A stretch of 64,000 nt of DNA from Bacteroidia bacterium (lineage in GTDB: Bacteria > Bacteroidota > Bacteroidia > B-17B0 > Aurantibacillaceae): contig JALOMJ010000002.1 in NCBI GenBank assembly GCA_025455485.1, positions 1 through 64,000 of the forward strand, written 5' to 3'. Shown piece by piece: positions 7,535 through 64,000 of the stretch. Made by a program: the position numbers and the translations under genes. Each line of letters starts with the position of its first letter. The stretch's first letter is position 1. The notes below the pieces were generated by a model that saw nothing but the letters and a program-made list of their open reading frames with translations, searched no databases and was not told where the DNA came from.

Positions 7535-7548
7535 ATGACATATATCAT
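7535..7548. promoter_or_regulatory. Crp/Fnr-type palindrome ATGACATATATCAT upstream of ccoI
   Basis: Matches ATGAY-N4-RTCAT; TAnnTTTG-like elements at 7593-7600 and 7620-7627. Confidence 0.65.
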
Positions 7549-7667
7549 CCCTGATTTTTGTTTTTTGTAATGGTGATTGCTGAACTGCAAATTACATTTG
7601 TAGTTTAGTTGCATACTTCTAACTTTGTTATGCAGGACTAATTTGATTTACCTGAATCGTCATCTTC

Positions 7668-10079
7668 ATGATTAAAGACCCAATCCATCCGCATCCAAAA
7701 ACCACCTGTTACCACTGTGGTGAGGATGTTATCGAAAGAGGCATACACCTTCAAGAAAAGGAGTTTTGTTGTACCGGATGTAAAACGGTTTATGAAATTC
7801 TTAATCAAAATAATTTATGTGAATATTATAGTCGGGAGGCGCAACCGGGCATCAATCAAAAACAACACATCAGAGAGGGCAAGTTTGGTTTTTTGGATGA
7901 TCAAGGCGTAACACAAAAACTCCTTCATTTTCAACAGGAGGAACAGTGCCATGTGATTTTTTATCTGCCGCAAATGCATTGCAGTTCGTGCATCTGGTTG
8001 CTGGAAAATCTTCCAAAAGTTAACCAAGGCATACTAAAATCTGAGGTTGATTTTATAAAGAAAGAAGTTCGTGTTATTTTTGATCAAACTAAAACAAGTC
8101 TGCGCAAAGTAGCCGAAACGCTTACTATGGTGGGGTATGAGCCACACATTAGTTTGCAGGATGTAGCCGATAAAAAGATAAGCAAACACAACAGATCCCG
8201 TATTGTAAAAATAGGAATTGCCGGGTTTTGTTTTGGAAACATTATGATGTTAAGTTTTCCGGAATATTTTTCATTAAATCCGGACGAGCACCCTGGCCTT
8301 AACACCTGGTTTAGCGCACTCAATGTGCTTCTGTCATTGCCTATATTCTTTTATTGTGCAAATGAATTTTTTGAATCCGCATACAAAGGTCTGCGACAAA
8401 AATTTTTGAACATTGATGCTCCCATTGCCTTGGCTATTGTAATCACCTTTGCGCGAAGCATTTATGAGATAGTTAGTGGCAGCGGTGCCGGGTATTTGGA
8501 TTCGATGAGTGGTATTGTATTTTTTATGCTTGTGGGCCGGTATTTTCAGGATAAAACCTATCAAAACCTTTCCTTTGAGCGGGATTACAAATCGTATTTT
8601 CCTTTGGGCGTTACATTGCTGGAGGCGGAGGGACTTGAAAAACAAATTCCGGTGTCGGAACTTAAGCCCGGTAACCGGATAAAAATCCATCACGGCGAAA
8701 TTATCCCGGCCGATTCCATTCTTTTTATGGGCAAGGCCAGTATTGATTATAGTTTTGTTAGCGGAGAATCTCTGCCGGTTGAAAAATCTATCGGGGAAAT
8801 TCTCTATGCCGGTGGAAAACAATGTGGCGGAGCAATAGAGCTGGAAGTAGTCAAAGAAATCTCTCAAAGTTACCTCACACGCTTATGGAACAACGATACT
8901 TTTAAGCAAGAAAAGGAAAGAGATAAACGTTCTTTTATACATTACCTGAGCCGATACTTCACCTATATTTTATTTAGCATCGCATTTTTTTCCACCCTTT
9001 ACTGGCAATTGGCCGATGCCACTAAAACATGGCAGGTGCTAACGGCCGTTCTAATTGTGGCCTGCCCTTGTGCACTGCTGTTAAGTGCAACCTTCACAAA
9101 TGGCAATATGTTGCATGCGCTGGGAGGAAAGGGTATTTATGTTAAAAATGCCGGTGTGTTGGAGGATATGTCGACTATCGATACCATAGTGTTTGATAAA
9201 ACGGGCACAATTACGGAGCAAATCGGCTCAGAAATGGTTTACAAAGGCGAGGAACTTAGTGATTATCAAAAGCAAATGTTTCGAACGCTTGCCGCACAAT
9301 CCAATCACCCCTTAAGCAAGGGCGTCTATGTGCAATTCCCGGCTTCCCTTAAACTTAAAATCACTTCGTTTTGGGAGGAAAAAGGCAAAGGCGTTTCTGC
9401 AATAGTGGATGGGCATGCCTTGCGTATGGGCTCATCTGAATGGGTAAAACAGGGCCTAAGCACTCCGGAAGCAAAACGCAGTTCGGTCTATTTGGTATTG
9501 GATGATGAGGTACTTGGTTTTTTTGAAGTAAACCACCATTACCGTTCACAGCTTAAGCAAGTTGTTGATGAATTGAAACAACAGTACACTTTGGCGGTAG
9601 TATCCGGTGATAATAATGCTGAAGAACAAAGATTACAAAAGCTTTTTGGAGATAACAGTAATTTGCTTTTTAATCGTCAGCCTCAGGATAAGCTGGAGTA
9701 CATTAAGCGTTTGCAGGAGCAGAACCATACAGTGATGATGGTAGGGGATGGCTTAAACGATGCCGGGGCCTTGCGTCAAAGTGATATTGGTATTGCCATT
9801 AGCGATAATACAAATACGTTTTCTCCATCCTGTGATGTGATTTTTTCGGGGCGGTCCTTTGCCTTGTTTGGTAGATTCATCCTGTTCTGTAAGCGCCAAA
9901 AACACATTATTTACGCAAGTTTTATTTTATCGATACTGTATAACATCGTGGGTTTGTATTTTGCCGTAAGCGGACAGCTGCAACCGGTAATTGCGGCTAT
10001 ATTGATGCCCATAAGTTCGGTTAGCATTGTTTTGTTTACCTCCGGAGCCACCCTTTTGTTGGCAAAAAAATTGCGCTAG
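7668..10079 (+). CDS. ccoI: cbb3 oxidase-associated copper-translocating P-type ATPase
   Basis: N-terminal Cys-rich region, HMA domain (HCSSC), CPC motif (VACPCALLLS), DKTGT, GDGLNDAGAL. Confidence 0.93.
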   Translation: MIKDPIHPHPKTTCYHCGEDVIERGIHLQEKEFCCTGCKTVYEILNQNNLCEYYSREAQPGINQKQHIREGKFGFLDDQGVTQKLLHFQQEEQCHVIFYLPQMHCSSCIWLLENLPKVNQGILKSEVDFIKKEVRVIFDQTKTSLRKVAETLTMVGYEPHISLQDVADKKISKHNRSRIVKIGIAGFCFGNIMMLSFPEYFSLNPDEHPGLNTWFSALNVLLSLPIFFYCANEFFESAYKGLRQKFLNIDAPIALAIVITFARSIYEIVSGSGAGYLDSMSGIVFFMLVGRYFQDKTYQNLSFERDYKSYFPLGVTLLEAEGLEKQIPVSELKPGNRIKIHHGEIIPADSILFMGKASIDYSFVSGESLPVEKSIGEILYAGGKQCGGAIELEVVKEISQSYLTRLWNNDTFKQEKERDKRSFIHYLSRYFTYILFSIAFFSTLYWQLADATKTWQVLTAVLIVACPCALLLSATFTNGNMLHALGGKGIYVKNAGVLEDMSTIDTIVFDKTGTITEQIGSEMVYKGEELSDYQKQMFRTLAAQSNHPLSKGVYVQFPASLKLKITSFWEEKGKGVSAIVDGHALRMGSSEWVKQGLSTPEAKRSSVYLVLDDEVLGFFEVNHHYRSQLKQVVDELKQQYTLAVVSGDNNAEEQRLQKLFGDNSNLLFNRQPQDKLEYIKRLQEQNHTVMMVGDGLNDAGALRQSDIGIAISDNTNTFSPSCDVIFSGRSFALFGRFILFCKRQKHIIYASFILSILYNIVGLYFAVSGQLQPVIAAILMPISSVSIVLFTSGATLLLAKKLR

Positions 10080-10219
10080 ATACAATTTATAAGCTGATTA
10101 CCAAAGCATTTCCAAGGGAACTTATGGCGGGGCAGTATACTAATTAACCAGTTGTTTAGATGGGCCAAAATAGCTTTATTTGTCAGGAATATTAAAATTG
10201 ACAATTCTCCTTCAAAAGT

Positions 10220-10233
10220 ATGACCTAAGTCAT
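10220..10233. promoter_or_regulatory. Crp/Fnr-type palindrome ATGACCTAAGTCAT upstream of nos cluster
   Basis: Perfect ATGAC-N4-GTCAT. Confidence 0.75.
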
Positions 10234-24977: not shown

Positions 24978-25016
24978 TTAAATCCCTTGCCCTTACTTTT
25001 GAAGGAAACAAAGTGT

Positions 25017-25454
25017 ATGATTTTTTCTAAGGCAATCGAATACGGAATAAAAGCCAGCGTTTATGTGGCAAAACAATCTATGAATGGATACAGGTCCAAC
25101 CTTAAGGAGATTTCTGAGCACATAAATTCCCCCGAAGCATTTACCGCAAAGATTCTGCAACAACTGGCGAAGGGAGGTATCATACACTCTATAAAAGGGG
25201 CGGGTGGAGGCTTTGCTTTAGAAATTAAGGAGATGAAAAAAATCAAACTGGTTGATATTGTGCTGGCACTGGATGCTGATTTTTTGAATAGCACCTGTGT
25301 TTTGGGCCTTAAACATTGTTCTGAAACGAATCCTTGTCCTGTTCACCACAAATACAAACACATTAAAAGAGAGACCTTGCATCTTTTAAGAAACACATCA
25401 TTACTTGAAATGTCCATTAATCTGGATAAAGGATTAGCTTACCTTAGAAATTAA
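25017..25454 (+). CDS. Rrf2-family regulator, possibly NsrR-like
   Basis: Rrf2 wHTH and three-Cys motif CVLGLKHCSETNPC; start moved to MIFSKAIEYG. Confidence 0.9.
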   Translation: MIFSKAIEYGIKASVYVAKQSMNGYRSNLKEISEHINSPEAFTAKILQQLAKGGIIHSIKGAGGGFALEIKEMKKIKLVDIVLALDADFLNSTCVLGLKHCSETNPCPVHHKYKHIKRETLHLLRNTSLLEMSINLDKGLAYLRN

Positions 25455-25490
25455 ATTGAAACAAAAATTAAACCCACGAATAAGTAGAAT

Positions 25491-27635
25491 ATGGAAAAAT
25501 ATGTGATAAAAAGAAACGGGGAGTACCAACCCATTCAGGAATTTAAAATTAAAGATGCCATTACAAAGGGTTTTGGAAGTGTAGGAGCTTTGTTTGATGA
25601 GCAGGTTTACAGCAATGTGATGAAAGAACTCGAGGAAAAAGATACCTGGAGTGTTGAGGAAATTCAAGATAAAATAGAGCAAGAATTATTCAAACGTGGG
25701 CACTTTGAAGTGATGCGCTCATTTATGTTATACCGGCATACGAGAAAATTGCAGCGTGATATCGGTTCAGAAATTGATACCGCAACCACATACGTGAACA
25801 GCACACAAACCATCGAAGAATACACCGGTGAAACTGATTGGCGTGTGAACGCCAATGCCAACACGTCATTTTCAAATGCGGGATTGGTAAATAATGTGGC
25901 GGGAAAGGTTATTGCAAACTACTGGCTTGATAAAGTGTATTCCCCTGAGGAGGGTGCGGCCCACCGCAGAGGAGACATCCACATTCATGATTTGGATTGC
26001 CTCACAGGGTATTGCGCTGGATGGAGTTTGAGGGTACTTCTGAATGAGGGTTTTAATGGCGTGCGCGGGAGGGTGGAAAGCCGTCCCCCATCTCATTTCA
26101 GAGAAGCGCTTGGGCAAATGGCTAATTTTTTGGGCATTCTTCAAAGTGAGTGGGCCGGGGCACAAGCCTTCAGCTCTTTTGATACGTATTTGGCACCGTA
26201 TGTATTTAAAGATAAACTCTCGTATACGGATGTGCTTAAAGCAGTGCGCAGTTTTGTTTACAATTTAAATGTACCCGCGCGCTGGGGACAATCGCCTTTC
26301 ACCAACATCACTCTCGACTGGGTAGTACCGTCAGATCTTAAAGAACAAATCCCCACACGAAATAATAAACATCTTTTTGAAGGTATTAATGATTACGTCT
26401 TAATAGATTTGGCAATGACAAGGGGAGCAAAAGACCTCACAGAATTAAAATACAGTCATTTTCAAAATGAAATGAACCTCATTAATAAAGCTTATTACAC
26501 GGTTATGACGGAAGGTGATGCTCAGGGACAACCGTTCACGTTCCCCATTCCTACAGTAAACATCACTGAGGATTTTGATTGGTACGGTGAAAATACAGAC
26601 CTCCTGTTTGAAAACACAGCAAAAATTGGCTCATCCTATTTCCAAAATTTTATCGGAAGTCAATACACGCTTGATATAAATGGCAACCGCGTTGAAAATG
26701 AAAATGCTTATAAACCAAATGCGGTGAGAAGCATGTGTTGCCGCTTACAGCTGGATTTAAGGGAGCTGTTAAAGAGAGGTAATGGTTTATTTGGCAGCGC
26801 CGAAATGACAGGAAGTATAGGCGTTGTTACACTAAATATGGCACGTTTAGGCTATCTGTATAAAGCAAATGAGAAAGCATTGTACAAACGCTTAAATGAG
26901 TTGCTTGAACTGGCCAAATCAACATTGGAAAAAAAGCGACTCTTTATTCAGGACATGTTTGATAGGGGATTGTATCCTTATACCAAACGTTATTTAAGCC
27001 ACTACAGAAACCACTTCTCCACGATAGGTGTGAACGGCATGAACGAAATGATTATCAATTTTACTTCCGGTCAAGACAATATCAGCACAGAAAGCGGCAT
27101 TGATTTTGCGGCCGGGGTGCTTGATTTTATAAGAAATAAAATGAAAGCGTTTCAGGCTGAGACCGGAAATCTCTACAACCTGGAAGCTACACCCGCAGAG
27201 GGAACAACCTACCGTTTTGCAAAAGAAGATAAAAAGCGGTATCCGGAAATTTTACAATCAGGTATAGATGAAAACATATACTACACAAACAGTTCGCAAT
27301 TGCCCGTAGATTATACTGAAGACCCATTTGAAGCATTACTGCTCCAAAATGAATTGCAATGCAAATACACTGGCGGAACGGTCCTTCACCTATACATGCG
27401 TGAAAGATTAAGTTCTCCGGAAGCCTGTCGCAATTTGGTAAAAAAGGTAATCTCCGGCTTCAGTTTACCTTACATAACAGTAACCCCTGTGTTCAGCGTA
27501 TGTCCAAAACATGGTTACCTTTCCGGTGAACACACCTACTGCCCGCAATGCGACAAGGATGTATTAAAACAATTACAACATAACCTAAATAGTCATGAAA
27601 ACAACCACACAACAACTGCTCGAACAGCACAATGA
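25491..27635 (+). CDS. nrdD: Anaerobic ribonucleoside-triphosphate reductase catalytic chain lacking the C-terminal glycyl-radical segment
   Basis: ATP-cone N-terminus, NrdD core, terminal zinc site CPKHGYLSGEHTYCPQC; no RVxGY in this frame. Confidence 0.93.
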   Translation: MEKYVIKRNGEYQPIQEFKIKDAITKGFGSVGALFDEQVYSNVMKELEEKDTWSVEEIQDKIEQELFKRGHFEVMRSFMLYRHTRKLQRDIGSEIDTATTYVNSTQTIEEYTGETDWRVNANANTSFSNAGLVNNVAGKVIANYWLDKVYSPEEGAAHRRGDIHIHDLDCLTGYCAGWSLRVLLNEGFNGVRGRVESRPPSHFREALGQMANFLGILQSEWAGAQAFSSFDTYLAPYVFKDKLSYTDVLKAVRSFVYNLNVPARWGQSPFTNITLDWVVPSDLKEQIPTRNNKHLFEGINDYVLIDLAMTRGAKDLTELKYSHFQNEMNLINKAYYTVMTEGDAQGQPFTFPIPTVNITEDFDWYGENTDLLFENTAKIGSSYFQNFIGSQYTLDINGNRVENENAYKPNAVRSMCCRLQLDLRELLKRGNGLFGSAEMTGSIGVVTLNMARLGYLYKANEKALYKRLNELLELAKSTLEKKRLFIQDMFDRGLYPYTKRYLSHYRNHFSTIGVNGMNEMIINFTSGQDNISTESGIDFAAGVLDFIRNKMKAFQAETGNLYNLEATPAEGTTYRFAKEDKKRYPEILQSGIDENIYYTNSSQLPVDYTEDPFEALLLQNELQCKYTGGTVLHLYMRERLSSPEACRNLVKKVISGFSLPYITVTPVFSVCPKHGYLSGEHTYCPQCDKDVLKQLQHNLNSHENNHTTTARTAQ

Positions 27636-33408: not shown

Positions 33409-33702
33409 TTGGAAACACTAAAACTACAAGTCGATAACCTTAAGTGCGGTGGGTGTGCGAACACCATTAAAAATGGCTTGCGCCAATTAGAGGGCATAAA
33501 AGAGGTGCTGGTAAACCCAGAGGAGCAGTGGGTAGAAATTACGAGTGAGCGTGCCATTGACCAGGAGGCCGTTTTAAATAAACTAAGGGCCATGGGATAT
33601 CCTAAAACCGGAACAACAGAAGGTTTAGAAAAGCTCGGACGCCATCTTCAGTCTTATGTAAGTTGTGCAATCGGCAGACTGGAAGGAGAGGATAAAAACT
33701 AA
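33409..33702 (+). CDS. Heavy-metal-associated (HMA) domain protein
   Basis: CGGCANTIKNGL metal-binding motif; TTG start. Confidence 0.8.
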   Translation: METLKLQVDNLKCGGCANTIKNGLRQLEGIKEVLVNPEEQWVEITSERAIDQEAVLNKLRAMGYPKTGTTEGLEKLGRHLQSYVSCAIGRLEGEDKN

Positions 33703-33706
33703 AGTT

Positions 33707-33742
33707 CTGACCTCTGTCACACAGGCAAATGATTTTAATCAT
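33707..33742. promoter_or_regulatory. Tandem Crp/Fnr-type boxes CTGACCTCTGTCAC and ATGATTTTAATCAT upstream of cco operon
   Basis: Two 14-bp palindromes, centres 22 bp apart; TACTTTTA -7-like element at 33765-33772. Confidence 0.65.
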
Positions 33743-33779
33743 AATTTAGTATAAATTGCACCATTACTTTTACCACCCG

Positions 33780-33971
33780 ATGAGCGTAATGTTTATTTTA
33801 ATTTCAGCCAGCCTTATTATAGCCCTCGGTTTTCTGGCCGCATTTATCTGGTCGGTGCGTTCCGGCCAATACGAAGATGATTATACGCCATCGGTGCGCA
33901 TGCTTTTTGAGGATGCAAAACCCACAACAACTAATCAGGAACCTCAATCAAAAGAAATAAAAAACACCTAA
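33780..33971 (+). CDS. ccoS: cbb3 oxidase assembly protein CcoS
   Basis: Single TM; AFIWSVRSGQYEDDYTPSVRML. Confidence 0.85.
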   Translation: MSVMFILISASLIIALGFLAAFIWSVRSGQYEDDYTPSVRMLFEDAKPTTTNQEPQSKEIKNT

Positions 33972-33981
33972 ACCCCGTCTT

Positions 33982-36111
33982 ATGGAATTACAAAAATTCA
34001 GCTACGACAACAAAATTGTTAAACAGTTCGCTTACGCCACCATGCTTTGGGGGCTGGTAGGCATGCTGGTTGGATTAACTGCAGCTTTGCAATTGTTTAT
34101 CCCGGCATTAAATTTTGATTTGCCTTATACCACATACGGCCGTTTAAGGCCCATTCACACCAATGCAGTGATTTTTGCTTTTGTGGGTAATGGAATTTTT
34201 ATGGGAGTGTATTATTCTCTTCAGCGATTGGTAAAAGCCCGAATGTTTAGTGATTTTTTAAGTGCCATACACTTTTGGGGTTGGCAGTTAATCATTGTTT
34301 TAGCCGCCGTGAGTTTGGCATTAGGCTATACCACCGGTAAAGAATATGCCGAATTGGAGTGGCCTATTGACATTCTGATCACACTAATCTGGGTAGTGTT
34401 TGGTTGGAACATGTTTGGTACTATTTTACGTCGCCGCGAACGCCATTTATACGTGGCCATTTGGTTTTATATTGCAACGTTCATTACTGTGGCCATGCTA
34501 CACATTGTAAACTCCATTGAAATTCCGGTTTCACTTACAAAATCGTATTCCTGGTACGCCGGCGTGCAAGATGCTTTGGTGCAATGGTGGTACGGGCATA
34601 ATGCTGTGGCCTTCTTCCTTACAACGCCTTATCTGGGCTTGATGTACTATTTTATTCCAAAAGCCGCTAACCGCCCTGTGTATTCTTACCGATTATCAAT
34701 CATTCACTTTTGGGCACTGATTTTTTTATACATCTGGGCCGGTCCGCATCATTTGCTTTACACCGCTGTTCCCGATTGGGCGCAATCACTGGGCGTGGTA
34801 TTTTCAGTAATGCTCATCGCGCCGTCCTGGGGCGGCATGATTAATGGTTTACTTACCCTACGCGGCGTGTGGGACAAAGTGAGAGAAGACATCGTGTTAA
34901 AGTTTATGGTGGTAGCCGTAACCGCTTACGGTATGGCCACTTTTGAAGGACCAATGCTTTCATTAAAGAATGTAAATGCCATTGCTCACTTTACCGATTG
35001 GATTGTGGCGCATGTGCACGTTGGTGCATTGGGCTGGAACGGTTTTCTCACCTTCGGCATTTTGTATTACCTCATTCCTAAAATGTTCAATACACGTTTG
35101 TATTCAAACAAACTGGCCAACATGCATTTTTGGATTGGTACTTTGGGTATTTTATTGTACGCAGTGCCAATGTATTGGGCTGGCTTTATGCAAAGTTCCA
35201 TGTGGAAGGATTTTACACCCGAAGGCCAGTTAAAATGGCAGTTTTTGGATACAGTAACGAAAATGATTCCATTTTATGCAGCCCGTGCAGTGGGCGGAAC
35301 CTTGTACCTCACCGGGGTAATTATCATGACCTACAACCTCATTAAAACGGTAAAAATGGGACAATTTACCGCCAACGAACAAACAGAAGCCATGGCTTTA
35401 AGCGGCGAATACCACGCCCATGCCAAAGATCACTGGCACCGTTGGATTGAGCGTAAGCCTATACAATTTATGATTGCCAGTTTGGTAGTAGTGGCCATAG
35501 GAGGAATTATTGAGTTCGTTCCTGCGTTTCTGGTTAAATCCAATATCCCTACCATCTCTAGCGTGAAACCTTATACCCCGCTTGAACTGGAAGGAAGAGA
35601 CATTTATGTTAGAGAAGGTTGTTATACCTGCCACTCTCAAATGATTCGTCCATTCAGAAGCGAAACCGCCCGCTATGGAGAATATTCAAAAGCAGGGGAA
35701 TTTGTTTATGATCACCCATTCCAGTGGGGCTCTAAACGCACGGGTCCGGATCTGGCGAGGGAAGGCGGCAAGTATCCAGACAGCTGGCACTACAACCACA
35801 TGCTGGAGCCAAACTCTATGTCGCCGGGCTCAATTATGCCTACCTACAGTTGGTTACTTGACGATGATTTTGATGCGGCAGGCATTGCAGCTAAAATTAG
35901 GGCCATGCAAACATTGGGCGTTCCTTATCCTGAAGGGTATGATAAAATTGCCGAGGCCGACATGATGAAACAGGCGGAGATGATAGCGGTCGGATTAAAA
36001 AAGGATGGTATTGAAACGGAACCACAAAAAGAGATTGTGGCCATGATTGCCTACCTGCAACGACTGGGAAAAGACATTAAAAATTCAGAAAAAGCACAAT
36101 TAACCAAATAA
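33982..36111 (+). CDS. ccoNO: Fused cbb3 oxidase subunits I and II (CcoNO)
   Basis: CcoN heme-copper core followed by CcoO heme site EGCYTCHSQMIRPF in one ORF. Confidence 0.95.
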   Translation: MELQKFSYDNKIVKQFAYATMLWGLVGMLVGLTAALQLFIPALNFDLPYTTYGRLRPIHTNAVIFAFVGNGIFMGVYYSLQRLVKARMFSDFLSAIHFWGWQLIIVLAAVSLALGYTTGKEYAELEWPIDILITLIWVVFGWNMFGTILRRRERHLYVAIWFYIATFITVAMLHIVNSIEIPVSLTKSYSWYAGVQDALVQWWYGHNAVAFFLTTPYLGLMYYFIPKAANRPVYSYRLSIIHFWALIFLYIWAGPHHLLYTAVPDWAQSLGVVFSVMLIAPSWGGMINGLLTLRGVWDKVREDIVLKFMVVAVTAYGMATFEGPMLSLKNVNAIAHFTDWIVAHVHVGALGWNGFLTFGILYYLIPKMFNTRLYSNKLANMHFWIGTLGILLYAVPMYWAGFMQSSMWKDFTPEGQLKWQFLDTVTKMIPFYAARAVGGTLYLTGVIIMTYNLIKTVKMGQFTANEQTEAMALSGEYHAHAKDHWHRWIERKPIQFMIASLVVVAIGGIIEFVPAFLVKSNIPTISSVKPYTPLELEGRDIYVREGCYTCHSQMIRPFRSETARYGEYSKAGEFVYDHPFQWGSKRTGPDLAREGGKYPDSWHYNHMLEPNSMSPGSIMPTYSWLLDDDFDAAGIAAKIRAMQTLGVPYPEGYDKIAEADMMKQAEMIAVGLKKDGIETEPQKEIVAMIAYLQRLGKDIKNSEKAQLTK

Positions 36112-36337: not shown

Positions 36338-37498
36338 ATGAAATACATGAGTAATACAAAATGGCTGCTTCTGATGATGGCGGCCCCTATGTTCGGATGG
36401 GCTCAGCAAAACAACAGTGCAGGAAGTACCTACTTCTCAAACGCATTGTTTAACACCTTACTGGTGGTAATCATCATGTTGTTAATATTAGTGGTTGTGC
36501 TCAGCAATTCAATCCGTAATATCATCCAAAGCGATTATTTCAAAGAACGCTTCAAAAAAATGAAAGAGATGAAATCAGGTAAAAATCTGACGCTGCTGTT
36601 TTTCATTTTGTTCGCTTCACAATTGAAGGCCCAAACCGCAGCTGCTGCAAATAATACAATCGGCGGAATAGATCAGTTTACATTCTACTTTCTTATCTCC
36701 ATTGTTTTGCTTGAAGTAATCGTAGTTATTTTGTTGTTCAACATTCTCAGAACATACACCATCAATGAACTGAGTGTGGTGATGGATCCTGAAGCTAAAG
36801 CAGCGCCCTCAAAGCCTGAACGTACAATTCTCGACGTATTTAATGCCTCCGTAGAACTAGAAAAAGAAGAAGAAATTATGCTCGACCATGATTATGATGG
36901 CATCAAGGAACTCGACAATAATTTGCCGCCGTGGTGGAAATACGGATTTTATCTTACCATATTGGTGTCTTTTGTTTACTTAATTCACTATCATATTTCA
37001 GGCACTGGCGATCTTCAAACGGTTGAATACAACAAAGAAATTGCAGCAGCTAAGCTGCAAGTGGAAGAATTCATGCGCACCTCTGCCAACAACGTGGATG
37101 AAACCACTGTTAAATACCTGGTGGAAGCTTCCGATTTAGAGGCCGGAAAACAAATTTTTATTGCAAATTGTGTAGCCTGTCATGGTAAATACGGCGAAGG
37201 AAATACTGTGGGACCAAACCTTACCGACAATTACTGGCTGCATGGTGGCGGAATTGCAGATATTTTTAAAACTGTAAAATATGGCTGGCCCGATAAAGGC
37301 ATGAAATCCTGGAAGGAAGATTTTTCACCGATACAAATTGCACAAGTATCCAGTTACATTAAATCGCTTGTGGGTTCCAATCCAGCAAACCCTAAAGCCG
37401 CACAGGGCGATTTGTACACTGAGGGCACAACACCAGCAATGCCTGCCGACAGCACGCAAATCAGTGCCTTGCCCGCCGACAGTTTACAAAAACAGTAG
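36338..37498 (+). CDS. ccoP: cbb3 oxidase subunit III CcoP (one CxxCH only)
   Basis: LPPWWKYGFYLTI motif, NCVACHGKYGEGNTVGPNLTDNYWLHGG. Confidence 0.92.
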   Translation: MKYMSNTKWLLLMMAAPMFGWAQQNNSAGSTYFSNALFNTLLVVIIMLLILVVVLSNSIRNIIQSDYFKERFKKMKEMKSGKNLTLLFFILFASQLKAQTAAAANNTIGGIDQFTFYFLISIVLLEVIVVILLFNILRTYTINELSVVMDPEAKAAPSKPERTILDVFNASVELEKEEEIMLDHDYDGIKELDNNLPPWWKYGFYLTILVSFVYLIHYHISGTGDLQTVEYNKEIAAAKLQVEEFMRTSANNVDETTVKYLVEASDLEAGKQIFIANCVACHGKYGEGNTVGPNLTDNYWLHGGGIADIFKTVKYGWPDKGMKSWKEDFSPIQIAQVSSYIKSLVGSNPANPKAAQGDLYTEGTTPAMPADSTQISALPADSLQKQ

Positions 37499-37510
37499 AA
37501 GTTAAAATAA

Positions 37511-38923
37511 ATGGAACCGGAAGAACAACAAGAAAGTTTTCGTGATAGTATCGCTACAATTGATAAGTCAGGAAAACGGGCCTGGATTTACCCGAAAAAA
37601 CCCTCCGGAAAGCTTTTCAATCTAAGAGCTTACCTTAGTTACGTTTACCTTCTTGTCTTTTTTGGATTACCCTTTATAAAAGTACATGGCGAACCACTTT
37701 TTCTCATGAACGTAATGGAGAAAAAGTTCATTTTGTTTGGCATGATTTTTTGGCCGCAGGATTTTTTCATCTTCGGTTTGGGCATGCTCATTTTTATCAT
37801 TTTTATCGCGCTGTTTACTGTAGTCTTTGGTCGTGTTTTCTGCGGTTGGGCCTGTCCGCAAACCATTTTCATGGAAATGCTTTTTCGCAGAATTGAATAT
37901 TGGATTGAGGGGGATTATAAACACCAACAAGCCTTAAAAAAGGCCCCTTTGAACGCTGAAAAAATAAGAAAGCGAACGCTGAAGTACACATTGTTTTTTA
38001 TTCTTTCCTTTATCATCGCAAATGTGTTTTTAAGTTACCTCATCAGCATGGATGAAGTGCTTAAGCTAGTTAAAGAACCAATTGCTCAGCACAAAGGTGG
38101 CTTTATTTCCATGCTTATTTTTACCGCCGTATTCTTTTTTATATATTCCTACATGCGTGAGCAGATTTGTCTGATTGTTTGTCCATACGGCCGCATGCAA
38201 GGTGTGCTGTTGGATAAAAACTCTATTGTGGTGGCCTATGACTATGAAAGGGGAGAACCCAGACACAAGTTTAAAAAGAACGAAGAAAGAGGCAAAGGAG
38301 ATTGTATCGATTGTGGTTTGTGTGTCAAGGTTTGTCCTACAGGCATCGACATACGCCATGGAACACAATTGGAGTGTGTGAATTGTACAGCTTGCATTGA
38401 TGAGTGCGATCACATGATGGAAAGTGTAGGCCTTCCGCCAAAACTTATCCGTTACGATTCTGAAAATGGCATCAAAAATAAAACCAAACTTAAACTTACT
38501 ACCCGCATGCTTGCCTATTCCGGCGTGTTGCTGGTGTTAATGGGCATTGAAGGATTTTTACTGGCCACACGAACTGATTACGATGCCACCGTACTGCGAG
38601 CAAAAGGTATGTTGTACCAGGAACAGGGCCTTGATAGTATCAGCAATTTGTACACCATAAAGTTGGTGAATAAAACCAGAGATAGTTTGCCAGTGCAACT
38701 GCGTGTTGAAAATTTTAATGCGGCCATACGCATAGTTGGCAAACCTATTCTAGTAAAAAGCGAAGGCGTGTCTGAAGGCACATTTTTTGTGGTGATGAAC
38801 AAAAATGAATTACACGAAAGAAAGGCCAAACTTAAGATTGGTGTTTATTCCAATGGCGAGAAAATTAAAACAGTTAAAACCAATTTTTTAAGTAATATTT
38901 CACGTCAATCCAAAAACAAATGA
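37511..38923 (+). CDS. ccoG: CcoG/RdxA-like ferredoxin membrane protein
   Basis: GRVFCGWACPQTIFMEM and two CxxCxxCxxxC clusters. Confidence 0.93.
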   Translation: MEPEEQQESFRDSIATIDKSGKRAWIYPKKPSGKLFNLRAYLSYVYLLVFFGLPFIKVHGEPLFLMNVMEKKFILFGMIFWPQDFFIFGLGMLIFIIFIALFTVVFGRVFCGWACPQTIFMEMLFRRIEYWIEGDYKHQQALKKAPLNAEKIRKRTLKYTLFFILSFIIANVFLSYLISMDEVLKLVKEPIAQHKGGFISMLIFTAVFFFIYSYMREQICLIVCPYGRMQGVLLDKNSIVVAYDYERGEPRHKFKKNEERGKGDCIDCGLCVKVCPTGIDIRHGTQLECVNCTACIDECDHMMESVGLPPKLIRYDSENGIKNKTKLKLTTRMLAYSGVLLVLMGIEGFLLATRTDYDATVLRAKGMLYQEQGLDSISNLYTIKLVNKTRDSLPVQLRVENFNAAIRIVGKPILVKSEGVSEGTFFVVMNKNELHERKAKLKIGVYSNGEKIKTVKTNFLSNISRQSKNK

Positions 38924-39354
38924 GTTGGGGAATTAAAATCACAATTTTGTACCTGAGTTTTGTGGTAATGATTGTTACCATGGTGGTATTAACCAGTCGA
39001 GAAAACATTGACCTTGAGTATAAGGACTATTATGCCAGAGAATTGGCCTATCAGGATAAAATTGATGCTATGGCGAATGAAAAGGCACTACCGCAAAGCA
39101 TTCAACACCAGGTTCAGGATAAAGCCTTGGTGCTTATTGCTCCAATGGATTTTATCCTCAATGGCATTAAAGGCGACTTGCATTTTTACCGTCCCTCGGA
39201 TGCCACCAAGGACCTAATATTGCCGATGGCGTTTGATGGAAAAGGGCAACAAATTATTAGTAGGACAGTGTTTAGTAAAGGCATGTATAAACTACGCATG
39301 TCATGGAATTTACATGAAAAGCAGTATTTTAAAGAGGTAGTTTTGAATCTGTAG
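38920..39354 (+). CDS. ccoH: FixH/CcoH-like protein
   Basis: Single TM plus YYARELAYQDKIDA; follows ccoG. Confidence 0.82.
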   Translation: MSWGIKITILYLSFVVMIVTMVVLTSRENIDLEYKDYYARELAYQDKIDAMANEKALPQSIQHQVQDKALVLIAPMDFILNGIKGDLHFYRPSDATKDLILPMAFDGKGQQIISRTVFSKGMYKLRMSWNLHEKQYFKEVVLNL

Positions 39355-44225: not shown

Positions 44226-44350
44226 GCTTTAAAATTACGAAACGAATGATAAAACTGATGAAAATCAAATAGAAAAATTGACTTTTCTCAGGGCAAAACC
44301 CTTATGGCTGTGGTAATTTTGTACCTAGTTAAACCATTAAACACAGTATC

Positions 44351-44797
44351 ATGAGTTCAGTAATTAAAAAAACAGACAACTTCCCCTATTTTGGAAGTAT
44401 TTTTGATGACTTTTTCTCGAAAGACGTGTTCGATTGGAATGCTAAAAATTTTTCACAGCTTGGATCCACTTTACCTTCGGTTAATGTGAAAGAAACCGAC
44501 AACGATTTTCAGGTAGAATTGGCGGCACCGGGCATGAAAAAAGAGGATTTTAAAATTGAGCTGAACAATCACATCCTAAGCATTTCTTCCGAAAAAAGCG
44601 ATGAAAAGGAGGAAAAAAAAGAGAAGTATACCCGCCGGGAATTCAATTACCAAAGTTTTACCCGTTCCTTCAGGTTGCCCGACTCGGCAGCGGCTGATGG
44701 TATTGCTGCGGCTTATAAAGACGGGGTATTGAATGTGCAGATTCCTAAGAAAGAAGTAGCCAAAACACCGCCTAAACAAACTATCCCGGTAAAATAG
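44351..44797 (+). CDS. Hsp20 small heat-shock protein
   Basis: Alpha-crystallin domain; AAPGMKKEDFKIEL, AAYKDGVLNVQIPK. Confidence 0.93.
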   Translation: MSSVIKKTDNFPYFGSIFDDFFSKDVFDWNAKNFSQLGSTLPSVNVKETDNDFQVELAAPGMKKEDFKIELNNHILSISSEKSDEKEEKKEKYTRREFNYQSFTRSFRLPDSAAADGIAAAYKDGVLNVQIPKKEVAKTPPKQTIPVK

Positions 44798-46925: not shown

Positions 46926-46961
46926 GTGATAAAAGTCATGGTTAAGCATGATACTTCTCAG
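46926..46961. promoter_or_regulatory. Crp/Fnr-type box GTGATAAAAGTCAT with half-match ATGATACTTCTCAG 22 bp downstream
   Basis: Upstream of the DoxX-like/USP genes; same 22-bp spacing as other tandem sites. Confidence 0.45.
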
Positions 46962-49194: not shown

Positions 49195-50253
49195 CTAAGC
49201 CTTTAGTGATTTTATTTTATCGATGTTGATGATGGTGATGTTGCTGCCGCGTACTTCCACCAACTTTTCTTCTTTAAAGTCACTTAATGTTCGAATGAGC
49301 GATTCTGTTGCTGTACCTACAATATTAGCAAGGTCTTCTCTCGATATGGAGATGCTGAAGTTTTGATCACTTTCACGGCTATACCTGTCGTATAGCAATA
49401 CCAGTGCCTCGGCCACACGTTTTCTTACCGTACTGTAGGCCAGATTAACCAATTGTTTTTCTTTTTCAAGGATGTTATCAGAAAGCAATTTAACGAACGC
49501 CTTCATTACCTCCATGTTGTTATAAATAAGTGCAAAAAAGTCTTCTTTTGGTATGAGGATGACCTCACAATCCTCCATGGCTTCTGCCGAATCGGTATAA
49601 TTTTTATTTTCTAATAAGGCCGTGTATCCTAAAAAATCACCTTCTTTGTACAGCGTGGTGATAAATTCCTTGCCGTATTCGTGAGCCCGAAAGGTTTTGA
49701 TTTTACCTTTTGAAAGAAAATAGAGGTAGTGCGCTTGATTGCCTTCTGCAAAAATAAGTTCTTTCTTTTTGTACTGTTTTACTCTTCGTTGCGACGAAAG
49801 ATTTTTAAGTTCATCCAGTTTTTTTACATCGTCAAGAAATTTGTTTAAACCCTCAGCATTTTTAGAGAATTCTTTACGCAACATGGCATTTTTTTTCATT
49901 CGGCTTTCAACGGCATTCAACAATTCAATGTCACTGAAAGGTTTGGTGATGTAGTCATCAGCCCCCATTTCCATACCTTTCCTCATATCGGTTCTTTCGC
50001 TTTTTGCTGTAAGAAATATAAATGGAATTCCTGCAGTTAATGGAGATTTGTTTAGGAGGTGAATTACGCCGTACCCGTCTAATACAGGCATCATGATGTC
50101 GCAGATGATGAGGTCGGGTGTGTTTTGTTGTGCCATTTCCACACCTGTTTTTCCATTTTCAGCCTGCAGCACTTTATAGTTTGCCAATTCAAGAATTTCT
50201 GCTGTATTTTCCCTTACGTCGCGGTTGTCTTCTATAATCAGTATTGTTTTCAT
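49195..50253 (-). CDS. Response regulator with REC domain fused to Crp/Fnr-type cNMP-fold and HTH
   Basis: REC DIMMPVLDGYG and K in ITKPFS; cNMP-like domain; HTH ISREDLANIVGTATESLIRTLSDF. Confidence 0.92.
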   Translation of the reverse strand: MKTILIIEDNRDVRENTAEILELANYKVLQAENGKTGVEMAQQNTPDLIICDIMMPVLDGYGVIHLLNKSPLTAGIPFIFLTAKSERTDMRKGMEMGADDYITKPFSDIELLNAVESRMKKNAMLRKEFSKNAEGLNKFLDDVKKLDELKNLSSQRRVKQYKKKELIFAEGNQAHYLYFLSKGKIKTFRAHEYGKEFITTLYKEGDFLGYTALLENKNYTDSAEAMEDCEVILIPKEDFFALIYNNMEVMKAFVKLLSDNILEKEKQLVNLAYSTVRKRVAEALVLLYDRYSRESDQNFSISISREDLANIVGTATESLIRTLSDFKEEKLVEVRGSNITIINIDKIKSLKA

Positions 50254-51470
50254 CTTGCGTTTTGTATTGGAATTGTAATTTCAAAGATAGTGCCTTTATT
50301 CAACTCACTCTTAAATTGAATGTTGCCGTTCATGGCTTCAAGGTATTTGCTTACGATGTTTAATCCCAAACCTGTGCCTTGAATGTTGGTTACGTTTTTG
50401 GCTCTGAAAAATCGTTCAAACAAGTGTTCGTGCTCTTCTTCGGGAATGCCCATACCCTGATCGGCGATAGAAATAAAGGTTTGGTTGTTATTGATTTCCG
50501 TTCGGATAGTAATAATTTTACCTTCATCAGAAAACTTTATTGCGTTTGAAATGAGGTTAATAAAAATGTTTTTAATCATCTGCGGATCAAGTTCCAGATT
50601 TACTTCGCCTTCGTGTTTGTAATCCAATTGCTGTCCGGGTTTTAAGATTCCGTGCATTTCAATTAAGGTTTCATTCATGAGCTCTTTCAGCGAAAACAGG
50701 CTGTATTTGGCTGAAATCCGACCGTCTTCGAGCCGTTCAGCAGAAAGAAAATCATTCAGTATAAGGGTCATGTTGGTAACTGCCGACTTAATCCGTTGAA
50801 CGTGTTTTTGCCGTTTCTCATCGTCTTCGGTTTGTGTGTATTTTGCTATTAAAGAAATGGAAGAAAGGATAGTGCTGAGCGGTGTTCTGAATTCATGAGA
50901 GGCCATGGTCACAAACCGGGATTTGAGATCGTGCAGTTCCTTTTCGCGCTTGAGGGCGTGTTTGAGGTCTTCTTTCGAACTTTCAAGCTGTATGAGGGCT
51001 TCCTGCAATACACTTGTTCTTTCCTTTACTTTTAAGTCCAAATCGAAGTTCATCTTTATAATTTTTTCTTCGTTTTGTACCCTTTCAGTAATATCAATAA
51101 TAAAGGCTATAACAAAGGTTTTGTCTTCATTCTTGTAATAGCTTAAACTAATTTCGACAGGAAATTCACTTTTGTCTTTTCTTAGGGCCCTCAGTTTAAA
51201 ATCTTTGCCCATGGCCCTTGCGTGTGGCGATTTCAAGTAATGCTTCCGGTGCGATTCGTGTTTTTTGGTTAAACTCGCGGGTATCAGAGCTTCAATTGGC
51301 AAACCATCCAATTCGCCGGAAGTATAACCAAACATCCGGTTGGCGCTCGGATTCACCTTTATCATCAAACCCTCATTATCCACAATAATGATACCTTCTG
51401 TGGCGTGCTCAAACAAGGCAGTAATGCTTTCCATTCGGGTACCGGATAAAATTGAGCCTAATGTATGCAT
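50250..51470 (-). CDS. PAS-domain sensor histidine kinase
   Basis: PAS; H-box MASHEFRTPLSTI; N/G boxes NLISNAIKFSDEG, DQGMGIPEEE. Confidence 0.93.
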   Translation of the reverse strand: MHTLGSILSGTRMESITALFEHATEGIIIVDNEGLMIKVNPSANRMFGYTSGELDGLPIEALIPASLTKKHESHRKHYLKSPHARAMGKDFKLRALRKDKSEFPVEISLSYYKNEDKTFVIAFIIDITERVQNEEKIIKMNFDLDLKVKERTSVLQEALIQLESSKEDLKHALKREKELHDLKSRFVTMASHEFRTPLSTILSSISLIAKYTQTEDDEKRQKHVQRIKSAVTNMTLILNDFLSAERLEDGRISAKYSLFSLKELMNETLIEMHGILKPGQQLDYKHEGEVNLELDPQMIKNIFINLISNAIKFSDEGKIITIRTEINNNQTFISIADQGMGIPEEEHEHLFERFFRAKNVTNIQGTGLGLNIVSKYLEAMNGNIQFKSELNKGTIFEITIPIQNAR

Positions 51471-53921: not shown

Positions 53922-54758
53922 TTATTCGTGTATGGTTAATATGGGTGTTTGGATATGGTAAATGATTGTTTGCATGTTATTCTTCCTGAATATGGATTCA
54001 AAGAAGCCATGGTGCCTTGCTAAAGCTACGCTTAAATCAATGTTGTGTTTTTGAGCAAAGGTGTTCAAACCTACTGTAATGTTTGGCGCCGTGATTTCGT
54101 AAAAGTTGTGTTGTATTCCTTCCAGAAAATGGTCTAAGGCTACTCCTTCTACAGCGGCTTCAAAGCCCGGAATATTTTTTTCCTCTTTGTTCACATGCAG
54201 AATAAAAATTTCAGCATTAAAAAGACGCGCCATGGTTTTTAAAGGCTCAAGCAAATTCAGGGATTTTATTGCCTTGTTATCGCTGGCAAATAGTATGCGC
54301 TGTATGGGTTTGAATTTTATCTGATGATGAATAATCATTACGGGACAGGCGCACTCGCTGACCATTTCAGAGGCATTGCTGCCAATTACCTTCTCACTGA
54401 AAAATCCACTGCCCTGTAAACCCATCACAACAAGGTCGGCCTTTAGTTTTTCAGCCTGATTTTTTATGGTTTCTCCGGCAAATCCATGCAAACACATTAA
54501 TTCAACAGATTGCAATTCAGGATGATTTTTTCTGATACGGGCTTCAGTATCCTTGAGTTGTTGTAGGCCCTCTTTCTCCAATTCATTCAGCGTAAACATT
54601 AAGGTAGGCACTTCAGACGCAACCAGAGGAACATGGTAGGCAGTTAAAAGAATTAACCTCGCCTTACTCTTCACGGCCATTGCTGCAGCGTAATCTATCG
54701 CATTTTCAGCGCTTTCTGAAAAGTCGGTAGCGGCAAGTATGGTTGAAAATGAAGACAT
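53922..54758 (-). CDS. Universal stress protein (tandem UspA domains)
   Basis: ILAATDFSESAENAIDYAAAMA; VVMGLQGSGFFSEKVIGSNASEMV. Confidence 0.92.
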   Translation of the reverse strand: MSSFSTILAATDFSESAENAIDYAAAMAVKSKARLILLTAYHVPLVASEVPTLMFTLNELEKEGLQQLKDTEARIRKNHPELQSVELMCLHGFAGETIKNQAEKLKADLVVMGLQGSGFFSEKVIGSNASEMVSECACPVMIIHHQIKFKPIQRILFASDNKAIKSLNLLEPLKTMARLFNAEIFILHVNKEEKNIPGFEAAVEGVALDHFLEGIQHNFYEITAPNITVGLNTFAQKHNIDLSVALARHHGFFESIFRKNNMQTIIYHIQTPILTIHE

Positions 54759-54836
54759 CTTTTTACGGGCAGCATTGCTCTCTGAGTTTGAGGGTAATGA
54801 TTTGGACGAAATTAGTGAGAAGAGATAAGAAGAAAA

Positions 54837-54872
54837 CTGACTGATGTCAGCTTTGGTGATGATTTAAATCAA
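54837..54872. promoter_or_regulatory. Tandem Crp/Fnr-type boxes CTGACTGATGTCAG and ATGATTTAAATCAA upstream of USP gene
   Basis: Two 14-bp palindromes, centres 22 bp apart. Confidence 0.6.
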
Positions 54873-57326: not shown

Positions 57327-57959
57327 TCAGAAGGTGCTTAAGAGCTTTATTTCGTTTCGATAAAGCAGTAGTTTTTTGTCGTTTTCCAATTGTTTTAATA
57401 GACGTGAGATGACCACTCTGCTTGTGCCCATTTCTTCGGCAATTTGGTTATGGGAAAGTAAAATGGAAGATTTACCGGTAACTTTTGATTTGTTTTTTAA
57501 ATACTTAATTAATCGTTCATCAAGCTTGTGAAAGGCAATGCTTTCAAGTGATTTGAGTAATTCATTGAAACGTTGGGTAAAACTGTTAAAGATGTAGCTT
57601 TTCCAGCTGGGGTATTTTACCAGCCATTCATCCAGTTTTTCATGGGGTATGGAAATCAGTTCCACGTTATCTTCGGCAATGGCTTTGATTTCACTTTTTC
57701 TTGCCTCCATGCAGCAGGTATAGGCCATGGCGCAACTCTCATTTGAACTTAGGTAGTACAATAACAATTCATTTCCATCTTCGTCTTTTCGCATAACACG
57801 TATGGTGCCGCTCACAATCAATGGCATAAATTTGATTTGTTTGTTGTAGTCAATAATCACGTCTCCTTCTTTGAAAGACATAAGCTTACACCCTTCGCTA
57901 ATTTCATCGATGAGTTTTAATTCAAGAAAATGTTTGAGTTTTTCTTTAAGTGCCGTCAT
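57327..57959 (-). CDS. Crp/Fnr-family regulator
   Basis: cNMP-fold; HTH LSHNQIAEEMGTSRVVISRLLKQLEN. Confidence 0.92.
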   Translation of the reverse strand: MTALKEKLKHFLELKLIDEISEGCKLMSFKEGDVIIDYNKQIKFMPLIVSGTIRVMRKDEDGNELLLYYLSSNESCAMAYTCCMEARKSEIKAIAEDNVELISIPHEKLDEWLVKYPSWKSYIFNSFTQRFNELLKSLESIAFHKLDERLIKYLKNKSKVTGKSSILLSHNQIAEEMGTSRVVISRLLKQLENDKKLLLYRNEIKLLSTF

Positions 57960-63829: not shown

Positions 63830-63843
63830 ATGACCTATGTCAT
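63830..63843. promoter_or_regulatory. Crp/Fnr-type palindrome ATGACCTATGTCAT upstream of sulfur operon
   Basis: Perfect ATGAC-N4-GTCAT; differs from the nos box at one spacer base. Confidence 0.7.
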
Positions 63844-64000
63844 GTAATTTGTGTCACTTTTGTAACACATGGCTATAGCAGCCAATGAGCGTGTATTAGA
63901 AAACCTTGCAGTTCAGCTTTTGCACTGCAATATTATTCAGTAATAATAATTTTTTTACGGTAGGCAGGCATATTATCCTGATAAATGCTGATAAAGTAAA

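Follow-up and report, generated by a model that had tools for sequence, protein, structure and literature searches.

A 22-bp tandem pair of Crp/Fnr-type boxes as a candidate composite operator of a low-oxygen regulon in Bacteroidia

In the 64,000-nucleotide stretch of Bacteroidia DNA analyzed here (hereafter the window), the cco operon starts with ccoS and continues with a ccoNO fusion and the ccoP, ccoG and ccoH genes (Table 1). Upstream of ccoS lie two boxes centered at 33713.5 and 33735.5, the small HMA-domain gene (33409-33702) that precedes them ending 4 bp before the start of the distal one. Their centers are 22 bp apart, and the tandem arrangement with this exact spacing, proposed for positions 33707-33742 in a first-pass annotation, agrees with the window sequence in coordinates and distance. 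Further downstream, at 29.5 bp from the center of the proximal box to its first T, lies a -7 element that fits TAnnTTTG, the -7 consensus described for the phylum (PMC7366714). This distance places the proximal cco box near -41 to -42, so that the predicted activator position is close to the -41.5 of class II Crp/Fnr-type promoters. In relatives, ccoNO orthologues located 3' of the same paired element match COX1 and FixO. The ccoS start codon follows the predicted transcription start at a distance of about 3-4 nt (window 33780-33800) and predicted leaders are very short in several relatives too, hence the cco mRNA may be nearly leaderless.

Table 1. Boxes, promoter elements and genes considered in the window
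Feature	Position	Strand	Basis
Pair, 23 bp, proximal box degenerate, before ccoI-type P-ATPase gene 7668-10079, -7 element TACATTTG	7536..7570	+	Window scan
Pair, 22 bp, distal box degenerate, before cytochrome c and nosZ-propeller genes	10199..10232	+	Window scan
Distal cco box CTGACCTCTGTCAC	33707..33720	+	Sequence; 22-bp partner rule
Proximal cco box ATGATTTTAATCAT, about -41	33729..33742	+	Sequence; -7 element 29.5 bp off
cco -7 element TACTTTTA, consensus TAnnTTTG	33765..33772	+	Sequence; 29.5-bp peak in relatives
ccoS (FixS), gene 1 of the cco operon	33780..33971	+	Pfam FixS; ATGAG(C/T)G start kept in relatives
ccoNO fusion (cbb3 oxidase catalytic subunit and FixO)	33982..36111	+	ORF, sequence inspection
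ccoP, ccoG, ccoH	36338..39354	+	ORFs; assigned by sequence inspection
Pair, 23 bp, before hsp20 44351-44797, -7 element TAATTTTG	44256..44290	+	Window scan
Pair, 22 bp, before DoxX gene 47034 and two usp genes	46927..46960	+	Window scan
REC-cNMP-HTH_Crp regulator, best candidate reader	49195..50253	-	Pfam; co-occurrence; conserved recognition helix
Partner histidine kinase of the regulator, with a PAS domain like the haem-PAS of DosP and FixL	50250..51470	-	Pfam; PAS-domain matches; adjacency
Universal stress protein gene (usp)	53922..54758	-	Pfam Usp; gene order
usp -7-like element TAATTTCG	54807..54814	-	29.5 bp from proximal center
Proximal usp box (TGAC type)	54838..54849	-	Sequence, pair scan
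Distal usp box (TGAT type)	54860..54871	-	Sequence, pair scan
Weaker pair, 23 bp, before YeeE-type sulfur transporter gene, outside the -41 position	63831..63865	-	Window scan

The cco pair is one of several. With up to two mismatches allowed, a scan that, within this genome, covered the window and a few other loci retrieved seven pairs at 22 or 23 bp in the window versus about 0.5 for each of the other spacings, and these pairs precede ccoI, the cytochrome c gene of the nosZ operon, cco, hsp20, DoxX-usp, usp and the sulfur transporter gene. At six of the seven, a -7-like element lies at 28.5-29.5 bp; the scan identified four of these elements, and the other two (pairs 10199 and 46927), which have a mismatch at the leading T, were recognized by eye. 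The weaker pair 63831-63865 has its closest -7-like element just 6.5 bp off, which would fit with repression, not activation. The pair at 54837-54872 had been described as having the same architecture as the cco pair, which holds for the spacing and for the 29.5-bp distance to the -7 element but not for the order of the boxes. Indeed, as this pair faces the minus-strand usp gene, the first of a minus-strand gene series including the kinase and regulator genes, its TGAT box is distal and its TGAC box proximal, the opposite of the cco pair relative to its own gene. The window also encodes a second Crp/Fnr protein (57327-57959, minus strand) with several cysteines and a helix GTSRVVISR in which V replaces the usual E; its gene adjoins SoxB-like nucleotidase, cytochrome c and YeeE-type transporter genes (57-64 kb) and probably belongs to a separate sulfur-related regulon. 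Elsewhere, an Rrf2-family regulator gene lies directly 5' of nrdD (anaerobic ribonucleotide reductase) and its activase gene, and no tandem pair was found at this locus (window 24987-27635).

Comparison with relatives supports the view that these are Crp/Fnr-type dyads with a two-turn spacing. When 150 related genomes were searched for heterotypic pairs (TGAC-N4-GTCA, a gap of 0-30, TGAT-N4-ATCA), 45 of 58 had a gap of 10 or 11, corresponding to centers 22 or 23 bp apart, while the other 29 gaps shared 13 (binomial p ~4e-42 for 2 of 31 allowed gaps). All five TGAC-TGAC pairs are at 22 or 23 bp, as are most TGAT-TGAT pairs among the matches listed. A degenerate fixed-gap pattern returned 267 sites in 94 of the 150 genomes versus none for its letter-reversed control; a search with the box order swapped was dropped as a control since, both boxes being palindromic, it equals the reverse complement of the heterotypic search. 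The same rule is seen in an unselected set of 80 loci (1.37 Mb) fetched by the regulator protein alone, from genera including Runella, Chitinophaga, Pontibacter, Larkinella and Dyadobacter. Between 13 and 60 bp, 109 of 162 near-perfect pairs were at 22 (100) or 23 bp (9), with 2 at 21 bp and 0-3 at each of the remaining spacings; the letter-reversed control box had 1 of 10 at 22 or 23 bp and at most two pairs at any one spacing. Sampling of the wider phylum showed the sites to be largely confined to the class of the window and one further family.

Regarding the meaning of this distance, it had been suggested that 22 bp puts two dimers on the same DNA face. The two-turn spacing agrees with this suggestion; however, no enrichment was found at three (31-33 bp) or four turns (42-44 bp) across the 80 loci, and helical phase alone thus fails to explain the rule. 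Conservation of the exact abutting distance suggests dimer-dimer contact, and we infer that abutting dimers account for the spacing. Three-box arrays at successive 22-bp spacings were also observed in two loci (L065:1585-1640 and L197:7625-7680).

The position of the pair within the promoter is also constrained. TAnnTTTG is found 29.5 bp from the proximal center in 77 cases, with 0-7 cases for each of the other distances. In the unselected loci, it peaks at 29.5 bp (86) and 51.5 bp (121) over a background of about 6. In this set, 65 of the 86 proximal boxes have a partner at 22 or 23 bp and 104 of the 121 distal boxes have a proximal partner with at least six of eight letters, comparative support for the class II-like position initially proposed. 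The aligned promoters show no strong -33 element. The paired site, a putative control element, thus recurs across a class of Bacteroidota, with nearly always the same promoter position.

The genes located 3' of the pairs in the unselected loci encode PAS kinases (17-18, mostly the regulator's own kinase), Usp (15), ccoNO (10), ccoI (10), ccoS (6), Hsp20 (4), hemerythrin (4), DoxX (4) and also ScdA. The pair is carried by all 14 ccoS genes of the loci fetched by the regulator, and by another 8 in loci selected on sites, the window included. Like the geometry and the position of the operator, these targets can be read directly from the sequences. Our preferred reading is a low-oxygen or alternative-respiration regulon in the class Bacteroidia, with the pair as its composite activator operator bound by Crp/Fnr-fold dimers and a REC-Crp protein as its most likely reader; we give it a probability of roughly 70%.

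In this genome, the reader is most likely the REC-cNMP-HTH protein of Table 1. It belongs to the Crp/Fnr superfamily (PF00027, 8.5e-22; PF13545, 1.1e-15) and is also a response regulator (PF00072, 4e-29), whose receiver residues D9, D52 and K104 are present in 110 of 110 loci and T82 in 107, and whose recognition helix has invariant E317 and R321. As judged by eye on the alignment, its stretch LLENKNYTDSAEA appears to lack the usual R-A of the CRP phosphate cassette, where the arginine contacting cAMP is expected. The closest solved structure to its Crp part is PDB 2gau (E=6e-28), which we take to be a Crp/Fnr-family protein of P. gingivalis and whose match covers only this part of the candidate (query 133-347). 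Sites were found in 83 of 105 genomes with a REC-Crp protein (mean of 2.36 perfect gap-10 sites), in 7 of 20 with weak matches only (mean 0.75) and in 4 of 25 with no match (mean 0.16), an association (Fisher p = 5e-10) confounded by phylogeny and respiratory lifestyle; the 22 REC-Crp genomes devoid of a perfect gap-10 site were scored with a strict pattern. A strict DNA pattern for the helix, present in 22 of 396 genomes, was likewise associated with sites (p=1e-7), although too narrow for the phylum.

The kinase gene overlaps the regulator gene, and the two genes are adjacent in 103 of 110 loci. The PAS domain of the kinase has as best match the kinase 10jx, followed by DosP (E=4e-12) and FixL (2e-10), and the histidine aligned to the haem ligand of DosP and FixL is kept in 86 of 89 kinases. 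As the distal residues differ from those of FixL and DosP, haem binding is uncertain. By its targets and the resemblance of its PAS domain to haem sensors, oxygen is the likeliest signal of the system.

Could a different Crp/Fnr paralogue read the boxes, with REC-Crp controlling something else or sharing the sites? Such a protein is encoded elsewhere in this genome (C36:21475, 236 aa, no cysteine), with a helix GTAKETLVR similar to that of REC-Crp, and genome G011, in which no full REC-Crp was found, has three sites together with GTAKETLVR/GTARETLVR proteins. However, sites are dense around the REC-Crp gene, often directly 5' of its kinase gene, and most REC-free genomes that have sites encode cysteine-type proteins with a GTATE helix, which makes this alternative unlikely.

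Six genomes that have sites but no REC-Crp encode such cysteine-type proteins, which are standalone, have their cysteines at the N-terminus and carry the helix RE(D/E)(I/L)ANIVGTATE, nearly that of REC-Crp; several of their genes have a box pair nearby. Receiver dimerization, considered as a cause of the 22-bp rule, is weakened by the tandem pairs kept in these fusion-free genomes. The FNR-like N-terminus of these proteins (CxxC..C..C) and the target genes of the pairs, typical of FNR/FixK, would fit an oxygen-sensing Fe-S FNR binding directly as in E. coli, the tandem being ordinary FNR activation. We consider this quite improbable: the candidate reader in this genome is devoid of an N-terminal cysteine cluster, with two cysteines in its whole ORF, and the boxes, of consensus [AC]TGAYNNNNRTCA[GT], have the core TGAY..RTCA but differ from the FNR site TTGATNNNNATCAA with its conserved outer T-A, the outer T of TTGAT being disfavored (5' flank of the distal box: T in 10-13%, A or C in 71-81%). 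In the unselected set, each half-site has C or T as its fourth base irrespective of the other half-site, so that the CTGAC and ATGAT boxes of the window are variants of one site and two distinct box types are ruled out. Two regulators, one for the TGAC and one for the TGAT box, would accommodate the differing window boxes and the bias of heterotypic pairs (TGAT distal in 32, proximal in 9) but are very improbable, given this free choice, mixed boxes as common as pure ones with many combinations at the same spacing, and homotypic pairs that keep that spacing.

Returning to the composite operator read by REC-Crp, two Crp/Fnr-fold dimers would occupy the abutting 22-bp-spaced dyads. The proximal dimer at about -41 could contact RNA polymerase and replace the -33 element, and the distal dimer at about -63, on the better conserved box, would hold the proximal one in place through cooperative binding, touch polymerase itself, or both. 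The REC-cNMP-HTH protein would be phosphorylated by the adjacent FixL/DosP-like PAS kinase, the two forming in effect a FixL plus a fused FixJ-FixK. The co-occurrence of protein and sites and the pairs 5' of the kinase gene are apparent in the genomes themselves; we infer which protein reads the boxes, their cooperative binding, the phosphorylation step and the oxygen signal. Beyond this genome, there may be a class-wide promoter code of two abutting Crp-type dimers exactly 22 bp apart, with one recognition helix carried by two sensors (in certain families a cysteine protein like FNR, in others a receiver fusion driven by a kinase), the sensor having been swapped while operators and regulon were kept; we see the case for this scenario as evenly poised.

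A literature search, with subscription journals mostly outside its reach, retrieved no paper on this regulon. As far as we found, low-oxygen sensing and the switch-on of cbb3 oxidase, nitrous oxide reductase and stress genes are poorly described in Bacteroidota. What is gained here is an operator that can be searched for and comes with a predicted transcription start, together with candidates for the regulator and the kinase and a hypothesis of sensor swap. All of these can be tested in culturable strains such as Runella limosa or Chitinophaga filiformis, each with a pair in its REC-Crp locus, in a natural system where exact dimer-dimer spacing, beyond helical phase, seems required.

Among known systems, E. 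coli FNR and CRP activate from -41.5 (class II) and -61.5 (class I) (PMC5957442), class III sites lying further upstream at about -93.5. The boxes described here are likewise Crp-fold dyads with a 12-bp core and a proximal position of about -41; they differ by the missing FNR outer T and by the two abutting dimers predicted as the rule. Another parallel is with FixL-FixJ-FixK of Alphaproteobacteria (PMC4999443), which shares a PAS kinase resembling haem sensors, cco targets, a Crp/Fnr output protein devoid of an Fe-S cluster and what looks like the takeover of sites that an Fe-S FNR-type protein reads in other organisms. In Caulobacterales, FnrN is proposed to have been replaced by FixLJ-FixK on existing sites (PMC4999443), a replacement that the putative sensor swap resembles by analogy, not as proof. 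In contrast to the Fix system, the receiver and the Crp body are here one protein, and the sites, in another phylum and with other box letters, are tandem pairs fixed at 22 bp before a TAnnTTTG promoter.
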